Of a stretch of 41,283 nt of DNA, positions 22,240 to 36,227 are shown in pieces. Source of the stretch: Robiginitomaculum sp. (GTDB lineage: Bacteria > Pseudomonadota > Alphaproteobacteria > Caulobacterales > Maricaulaceae); contig JALWSB010000165.1 of NCBI GenBank assembly GCA_027080345.1, forward strand, positions 1 to 41,283, given 5' to 3'. The stretch's first letter is position 1; every line of letters starts with the position of its first letter. The translations under genes were made by a program, and so were the position numbers. The notes under the pieces were generated by a model. The model had not been told where the DNA came from, did not search any database, and saw only the letters and a program-made list of their open reading frames with translations.

Positions 22240-22825
22240 GTGTCACCCCGGAAGCCCATGGGCTATCCGGGGCCTATAGTGACGTAATCGATGCCCTATG
22301 GATCCCGGATCAAGTCCGGGATGACACGTAGGGGCCGGGATGACAAGAGGTGGTAAGGGGTAAGCCTTACGTTCGCATGGTTCGACAGGCTCACCATGAG
22401 GTTTTACATACCCCAACACCGTCATTGCGGTACCCGCCTTCGCGGGCACAGGCTCCGGCCGCAATCCATCTTGTGGCATTAAAATAGACCCCGGGCGTGG
22501 GTCCGGGGTGACGAGACTTTGGGATTATTTTGATCTGTCATTACCCGGCTTGTCCGGGTAATCCAGATTGTGACTCACAAGCCCCTCATCCCGGCCTTCT
22601 CCCAAGGGAGAAGGGGAAGAACTGGTCTATTTCATCCGTACATGGCGGTATTCTTACGCCGCTCTGGATACCGGCTTTCGCCGGAATGACGGCCGGATGG
22701 GGAAAGCACGCGCCAAGCCACCCCTGTCTTCGTCACCCTTCGGTTTAACCGGAGGGTCCATGTGGCAAGGCAAAATGCGCGGGGCTTCACAATGGATTAC
22801 CCGGACAAGCCGGGCAATGACACAT
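22240..22825. repeat. Mosaic of several palindromic intergenic repeats (REP/BIME-like cluster)
   Basis: caccccgg...ccgggg, gatcccggatcaagtccgggatgaca, gttcgacaggctcaccatgagg, gaccccgggcgtgggtccggggtgacg, ctgtcattacccggcttgtccgggtaat, ataccggctttcgccggaatgacgg, ggattacccggacaagccgggcaatgaca. Confidence 0.75.
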
Positions 22826-34916: not shown

Positions 34917-36227
34917 ATGGGATTGTTTTCCTTGAAATTACCCGATGTTGGTGAAGGCGTTGTCGAGGCCGAAATCGTTGAATGGCATATCAAGCCCGGC
35001 CAGACGGTCAGCGAGGACGACCATCTGGTCGACATCATGACCGACAAGGCGACCGTGGAAATCCCCGCACCGGTCAGCGGCGTGATCAAGGAGATCACCG
35101 GCGAACCGGGCGATATTCTGGCCGTTGGCTCGGTGATCGTCACTATTGAGACGGATGCGGCGGCGGCCAGTGATGAGGAGGCTCCCCCCCTTCGACAAGC
35201 TCAGGGTGAGGATAAAGCGAACAAGGCATTGCCTGATTCCAAGCCTACCCCAAAACCACATTCTGAGCCTGGCCCAAAGCCTCATCCCCGGATCCAGTCC
35301 GGGGCAGGCTCTGAGCCTGTCGAAGGATGGGGCGGCGAAGAACGCGGCAGCGCAAGGCCTCTGGCCTCACCGGCGGTGCGCAAACGGGCGCTGGAAGCCG
35401 ACATTGACCTTGCTTGCGTCAAAGGCTCTGGCCCTGCCGGGCGCATCAGCCACCAGGATCTCGATGATTTTATCGCCTCTGGTGGGCGGCAAATGGTATC
35501 ATCCGCAGCGCAAATGGGGCGCACAAAACGCACCGGCATAAACGAACATAAAGTGATCGGCCTGCGCCGTAAAATCGCGCAAAACCTGGCCGCCTCGAAA
35601 CGCAACATCCCGCACTTTGCCTATATTGAAGACATTGAGATGGACGCGCTGGAAAATTTGCGCGCGCATCTGAACGCCACCCGCACCAAGGAGCAGCCAA
35701 AGCTGACCTTATTGCCGTTTTTAAGTCTGGCCTTGATCAAGGTATTGCCGGACTTTCCGCAAGCCAATGCCCATTTTGATGGCGAGGCGGGCATCGCCAC
35801 CCATTATGAAGCGGTGCATATGGGCATCGCCACGGCGACACCAAACGGCCTGATGGTGCCAGTGGTCAAACACGCCGAAAGCATGGATATCTGGGAGCTG
35901 GCGTCTGAAATCACCCGCGTGTGCAACGCCGCGCGCGATGGCAAAGGCACAGCGGATGAACTTACCGGCTCGACCATTACCATTACCTCCCTTGGTGCCT
36001 TAGGCGGCATTGCTTCAACCCCGGTGATCAATGCGCCGGAAACGGCCATTATCGGCGTCAATAAATTGCAAGTGCGCCCGGTCTGGCAGGACGGGGCCTT
36101 CGCGCCGCGCAAAATGATGAACCTCTCATCAAGTTTTGATCACCGCATTGTCGATGGCTATGACGCCGCTTTGATGATCAGCAAGGTCAAGGCCTTGCTG
36201 GAAAACCCCGCCACCTTGTTTATGTGA
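34917..36227 (+). CDS. bkdB: Branched-chain 2-oxoacid dehydrogenase E2 (lipoamide acyltransferase)
   Basis: Lipoyl domain VDIMTDKATVEIPAPVSG, E3-binding SPAVRKRALEADIDLACVKGSGPAGRISHQDLDDFI, catalytic SFDHRIVDGYDAA. Confidence 0.95.
   Translation: MGLFSLKLPDVGEGVVEAEIVEWHIKPGQTVSEDDHLVDIMTDKATVEIPAPVSGVIKEITGEPGDILAVGSVIVTIETDAAAASDEEAPPLRQAQGEDKANKALPDSKPTPKPHSEPGPKPHPRIQSGAGSEPVEGWGGEERGSARPLASPAVRKRALEADIDLACVKGSGPAGRISHQDLDDFIASGGRQMVSSAAQMGRTKRTGINEHKVIGLRRKIAQNLAASKRNIPHFAYIEDIEMDALENLRAHLNATRTKEQPKLTLLPFLSLALIKVLPDFPQANAHFDGEAGIATHYEAVHMGIATATPNGLMVPVVKHAESMDIWELASEITRVCNAARDGKGTADELTGSTITITSLGALGGIASTPVINAPETAIIGVNKLQVRPVWQDGAFAPRKMMNLSSSFDHRIVDGYDAALMISKVKALLENPATLFM
35189..35326. 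repeat. Palindromic repeat element embedded in frame in bkdB
   Basis: CCTTCGACAAGCTCAG (35189-35204) and CTGAGCCTGTCGAAGG (35311-35326) form inverted ends, with ccccggatccagtccgggg between them. Confidence 0.75.

Follow-up and report, generated by a model that had tools for sequence, protein, structure and literature searches.

An inverted pair of REP-type repeats lies in frame in the lipoyl linker of a branched-chain 2-oxoacid dehydrogenase E2 gene from Robiginitomaculum

The 41,283-nucleotide stretch of DNA analysed here (the window), for which the nearest named records are Robiginitomaculum assemblies, contains a gene for the E2 component of the branched-chain 2-oxoacid dehydrogenase (BKD) in which two REP-type units lie in inverted orientation within the interdomain linker. 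This inverted pair very probably entered the gene in frame and was kept since the linker tolerates hydrophilic, unstructured sequence. The relevant features of the window are as follows.

34,917 to 36,227, plus strand: BKD E2 host gene (dihydrolipoamide acyltransferase of the branched-chain 2-oxoacid dehydrogenase), assigned from Pfam domains and neighbour genes
35,160 to 35,357, plus strand: lipoyl-to-E3-binding linker of BKD E2, with disorder predicted from AlphaFold
35,186 to 35,211, plus strand: forward REP unit CCCCC-TTCGACAAGCTCA-GGGTG-AGG, peptide PPLRQAQGE, matched to the genus REP consensus
35,257 to 35,272, minus strand: probable decayed third REP copy CACATTCTGAGCCTGG, read by eye
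35,280 to 35,329, minus strand: reverse composite REP unit CATCC-TTCGACAGGCTCA-GAGCCTG-CCCCGGACTGGATCCGGGG-ATGAGG with exact core; plus-strand peptide PHPRIQSGAGSEPVEG
35,286 to 35,304, no strand assigned: nested hairpin CCCCGGA-TCCAG-TCCGGGG within the reverse unit, with 18 relatives in the genome
22,304 to 22,320, plus strand: CCCGGATCAAGTCCGGG palindrome of a second repeat family, from sequence search
22,381 to 22,393, plus strand: REP core outside the E2 gene, a variant with stem CATGG/CCATG

The product of the host gene comprises 436 residues, including the linker peptide quoted in the first-pass annotation of this DNA, and the reading frame is uninterrupted across both repeats and the hairpin. 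Inspection of the Pfam matches places Biotin_lipoyl at residues 6-77, E3_binding at 148-182 and 2-oxoacid_dh at 210-436, and genes for E1-alpha, E1-beta and E3 adjoin the E2 gene. The first-pass annotation had proposed that a palindromic repeat lies in frame in the BKD E2 linker, and the features it relied on are present: the inverted pair CCTTCGACAAGCTCAG at 35,189-35,204 and CTGAGCCTGTCGAAGG at 35,311-35,326, and the CCCCGGATCCAGTCCGGGG hairpin at 35,286-35,304. Its description of a single element with inverted ends and a stem needs refining: the E2 element is two inverted REP units, one holding a nested second hairpin, and not one palindrome.

The forward unit differs from the genus REP consensus at 3 of 26 positions, a match equalled by none of 300 codon shuffles. 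The reverse unit is composite, with the second hairpin CCCCGGACTGGATCCGGGG sitting between its core and its tail. A sequence internal to this unit, CAGAGCYTGCCCCGGA, was found in 13 of 18 genus genomes with at most one mismatch (0 control matches); G060 and G023 have it within the E2 linker. At the same tolerance, the relatives of the nested hairpin amount to 18 palindromes in the own genome, with none in controls. The segment at 35,257-35,272 is probably a decayed REP copy, judging by eye from the two PHPE copies that orthologues show there.

AlphaFold on 19 relatives gave pLDDT values below 50 for residues 82-145, the REP segment included, in agreement with the earlier suggestion of a flexible, tolerant linker as the site. 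The linker RNA folds strongly relative to dinucleotide shuffles (z = -4.7). An Rfam scan of the BKD E2 gene matched nothing at E values up to 1, and comparison of the 156-nt linker with a plasmid collection gave short partial matches only, the best-scoring among the matches listed having E = 3e-3.

The two E2 arms pair at 86% over 21 nt, their cores differing at one A/G position. No exact inverted arm in the linker exceeds 9 nt, a length often reached by synonymous recodings of the same peptide. Because the arms are imperfect and a 9-nt arm is common among such recodings, the inverted pair alone is not proof of a repeat, and inverted pairing, which was not significant under synonymous recoding, was dropped as a stand-alone argument. 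The evidence that the E2 repeat is genuine is copy number. The 13-mer core TTCGACARGCTCA occurs in 13 exact copies in the 2.24-Mb own assembly, where base composition predicts ∼0.12 and the reversed-pattern control gives no match. Within the window, a 15-mer allowed up to 2 mismatches occurs three times, against 0.09 expected. The other six genomes with the repeat in E2 contain 22 to 110 exact cores (control matches at most 1), and genus genomes whose E2 is without it contain 0 to 16.

A consensus derived from 136 distinct sites, nearly all of G000, G061 and G063, revealed a REP-like unit of 26 nt that consists of a 5-nt stem, the TTCGACARGCTCA core, the complementary stem and an AGG tail, which 101 of 114 non-genic copies possess. 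The stem occurs as CATCC/GGATG, CATGC/GCATG, CATGG/CCATG and CACCC/GGGTG, and the pairing observed at the three core-adjacent positions of non-genic copies was reached by 0 of 500 shuffles, consistent with covariation. Neighbouring repeats form inverted pairs, as expected of REPs, in 42 of 43 cases, with spacers of 6-175 nt between non-genic cores; in 8 of 8 intragenic pairs the AGG tails face each other, the arrangement seen in E2. Given the 26-nt unit, the covarying stem and the position of 114 of the 136 sites outside scored ORFs, the family is a REP in the broad sense, and the three-genome census thus bears out the first reading of the repeat type as otherwise intergenic. The 3-nt AGG tail is present, but GTAG and CGTC are both missing beside the E2 copies, and CGTC also from the nested hairpin; by this tag criterion the units fall outside the GTAG/CGTC REP super-families. 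Separate 17-nt palindromes elsewhere in the own genome adjoin GTCAT.

The copy near 22,380 with which the E2 repeat had been compared is real. It is a stem variant, CATGG...CCATG, in which the base changes are compensated, and it lies near the CCCGGATCAAGTCCGGG palindrome at 22,304, so that both repeat families are clustered at 22,304-22,393, outside the E2 gene.

Alignment of E2 orthologues together with a tree supported the claim that the insert is lineage-specific. REP-derived linkers were present in 7 of 17 genus orthologues (G000, G060, G035, G061, G053, G023 and G063), each of which fits the 26-nt REP consensus more closely than any of 300 codon shuffles made from that linker. By the same test, a 7-member sister subclade, G064, G045, G067 and the outgroups are non-carriers. 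Linkers free of the peptide did not beat their shuffles, and the case held up by the first-pass annotation against its own proposal, the same peptide coded without a DNA palindrome, was absent. The tree of E2 carriage requires four changes and leaves the basal branches open; one gain followed by losses or swaps is compatible with it. At the corresponding place in the G067 linker, another palindromic sequence, CATCCTGAGGTGCGCCTGCAAGGCGCCTCGAAGGGTGG, was read by eye. REP and non-REP E2 linkers overlap in length, so that the repeats may either have lengthened the linker or have replaced linker DNA.

The forward arms of BKD E2 share 19 of 30 codons, much like the rest of the gene (58%), so that recent homogenisation is not shown for this gene. 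In three forward arms of E2 of PDH, 15 of 15 codons are shared, compared with 60% in the folded domains, which indicates identity of these arms at the DNA level. On these small numbers, the BKD E2 copies look older and decaying, and the PDH copies younger or homogenised.

In-frame placement was also observed in other ORFs. The census covered stretches around repeat sites in G000, G061 and G063 and scored ORFs of at least 100 aa in which coding-like sequence extended for 30 aa or more to either side of the repeat, a rule that misses sites close to the ends of genes. By this measure 22 of the 136 sites were intragenic and all 22 were in frame; they do not represent 22 events, many being of common ancestry. 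All are found in two types of interdomain linker, namely lipoyl linkers and the linker that follows the membrane segment of a TPR family. The lipoyl proteins concerned are BKD E2, PDH E2 and PDH E1-beta. In G045, G053, G059 and G063, the paralogous PDH E2 has these REPs in the linker that corresponds to that of BKD E2. PDH E1-beta of G061 has one REP in its lipoyl linker, and the PDH E2 linker of G061 holds a different palindrome, CCTCTCCCCGCCGGGGAGAGG, one of four occurrences in the G061 genome. A second palindrome type, CCCTCTCCC...GGGAGAGGG, read as SPSPQGEG or SPSPRRGEG, was seen in PDH E2 and E1-beta linkers (L176, L181 and L259).

Proteins of the TPR membrane family are ∼610-790 aa long and combine an LRRRNIFRVAG segment in the N-terminal part with hydrophobic stretches and, in the C-terminal part, TPRs; by eye the REP pair directly follows the last hydrophobic stretch as WQGMRGPILRQAQDE...PHPELVEGSE. 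The family is multi-copy (L356-L380 in G061, G063, G035, G053, G069 and G023), the pair being found in many paralogues and absent from some. In three G023 members (L361, L369 and L380), in-frame tandem expansions of QAQDEVGG/QAQDKV, of ∼3 to ∼7 units, lie beside the REP.

The REP consensus offers two open frames per strand, LRQAQDE or FDKLRMR forward and PHPELVEG or LILSLSK in reverse, the third frame running into TGA. All 22 genic sites are read as LRQAQ or as ELVEG/EPVEG. Since only the hydrophilic open frames are used in this genus, a protein-level filter probably acts on the reading phase of the insert. Eight candidate genic sites in the wider Pseudomonadota use other frames too (e.g. FDKLRANG), which would make the frame preference specific to this genus or to the genes that host the repeat in it.

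A sample of 299 Pseudomonadota genomes contained CCTTCGACARGCTCAGG in 22 cases, patchily distributed and in up to 114 copies. No PF01797 protein (RAYT, Y1 transposase) was found in the own assembly, which is 82% complete, or in G023, which is 99% complete and has 110 repeat copies. Among the Y1-transposase loci of relatives and of other REP-rich genomes, the repeat was absent from the flanks inspected, and RAYT was accordingly rejected as mobiliser of the E2-type REP; on the genomes and flanks covered, the repeats do not qualify as REPINs mobilised by a RAYT. In six genomes (G023, G296, G210, G214, G363 and G102), where repeat copies number 21 to 114, there was no match to PF01797.

Direct observation covers the repeat family and the covariation in its stem, the in-frame site, the lineage restriction, the recurrence in paralogous linkers and, as a prediction, the disorder. 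Beyond these, REPs would have arrived by a copy-and-insert process, and the entry of an inverted pair into E2, with the frame preserved, most likely took place in an ancestor of one genus subclade. Persistence would then be owed mainly to tolerance and not to a benefit for the enzyme, with insertions elsewhere in genes purged by selection. Thereafter the REPs would evolve as part of the protein, their arms decaying or another REP type taking their place, as in G067, with the frame kept. A broader proposal, in which several unrelated palindromic families settle within genes preferentially at lipoyl linkers and at one membrane-protein linker, these linkers being largely built and rebuilt from mobile palindromes that a non-RAYT mobiliser spreads, is tentative and on balance doubtful.

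Selection might instead retain REP-coded linkers for their flexibility or for delivery of the lipoyl domain, or an RNA hairpin might time translation between domains. The equivalent linker is affected in three different 2-oxoacid dehydrogenase proteins, many paralogues of the TPR family have kept the pair at a single position, where in-frame expansions also occur, and the linker RNA folds strongly, all of which would suit a functional repeat. However, the BKD E2 arms are decaying, in G045 and G067 these arms are either missing or replaced, and the stem of the forward copy in the window is imperfect. REP-free genus members and outgroups have linkers of similar length, and the concentration in linkers is explained equally well by tolerance. 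We consider a functional repeat unlikely.

Far less probable is an artefact of metagenome assembly or binning that misjoined repeats into E2. Assemblies do fail at repeats, and the own genome is 82% complete in 202 contigs, but six other genus assemblies have REP-derived linkers that differ in detail and are flanked by intact domains. An accidental or convergent resemblance of Pro/Glu/Lys linker codons to the repeat has, if anything, still less to recommend it and is close to negligible: the linker peptides are of low complexity and the 9-nt arm is ordinary under synonymous recoding, but the carriers' matches to the REP consensus were equalled by no codon shuffle, and the number of copies in the genome argues against chance. 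In-frame entry of a REP-type pair into a tolerant linker is thus the reading preferred here.

REPs within genes are known as such; what is novel is the repeat family, its hosts and its recurrence in E2-type linkers. REPs within ORFs of several species have been published, with flexible linkers or loops suggested as tolerant sites (PMC3733652). The GTAG/CGTC-tagged REPs described there have a short stem-loop and a 3-nt tail, form inverted dimers and are mostly intergenic with some intra-ORF copies, the CGTC type occurring in all orders of alphaproteobacteria (PMC3733652). The E2 unit is alike in all these features of structure and position, but its core is TTCGACARGCTCA, its stem is 5 bp and neither tag adjoins it. 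That paper emphasises DNA replication and repair genes, lipoyl and dehydrogenase proteins being absent from its main text. A literature search found no publication on palindromes in lipoyl linkers, and TTCGACAAGCTCAGG as a literal string had no match in the literature searched. With REPINs and BIMEs the repeats share inverted REP pairs and short spacers, but those are RAYT-mobilised, whereas here no PF01797 gene was found with the repeat in its flanks, and none at all was found in several repeat-rich genomes.

The parallel with the Rickettsia palindromic elements (RPE) that the first-pass annotation had drawn held for behaviour. As far as PMC3733652 conveys the original reports (Ogata 2002; Claverie and Ogata 2003), RPE are in-frame palindromes in Rickettsia proteins. 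In both cases a palindrome lies in frame in real alphaproteobacterial protein genes with the ORF kept open, and in E2 Pfam domains flank it on both sides and the orthologue frames are open, as for an RPE-like in-frame insert. On that account of RPE, the E2 unit would differ in that it is a REP of 26 nt arranged as inverted pairs, in belonging to a genus not known as intracellular and, by the census here, in having its genic copies only in interdomain linkers. The E2 linker provides a counterpart outside Rickettsia to repetitive palindromes turned protein, traceable across 17 genomes of one genus with a REP, without one, with a decayed REP or with another REP type. The case also draws attention to a REP family that is patchy in Pseudomonadota and whose mobilising enzyme is seemingly not the usual one. 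As three different lipoyl proteins are affected, the idea of tolerance by linkers, previously only suggested, becomes directly testable.
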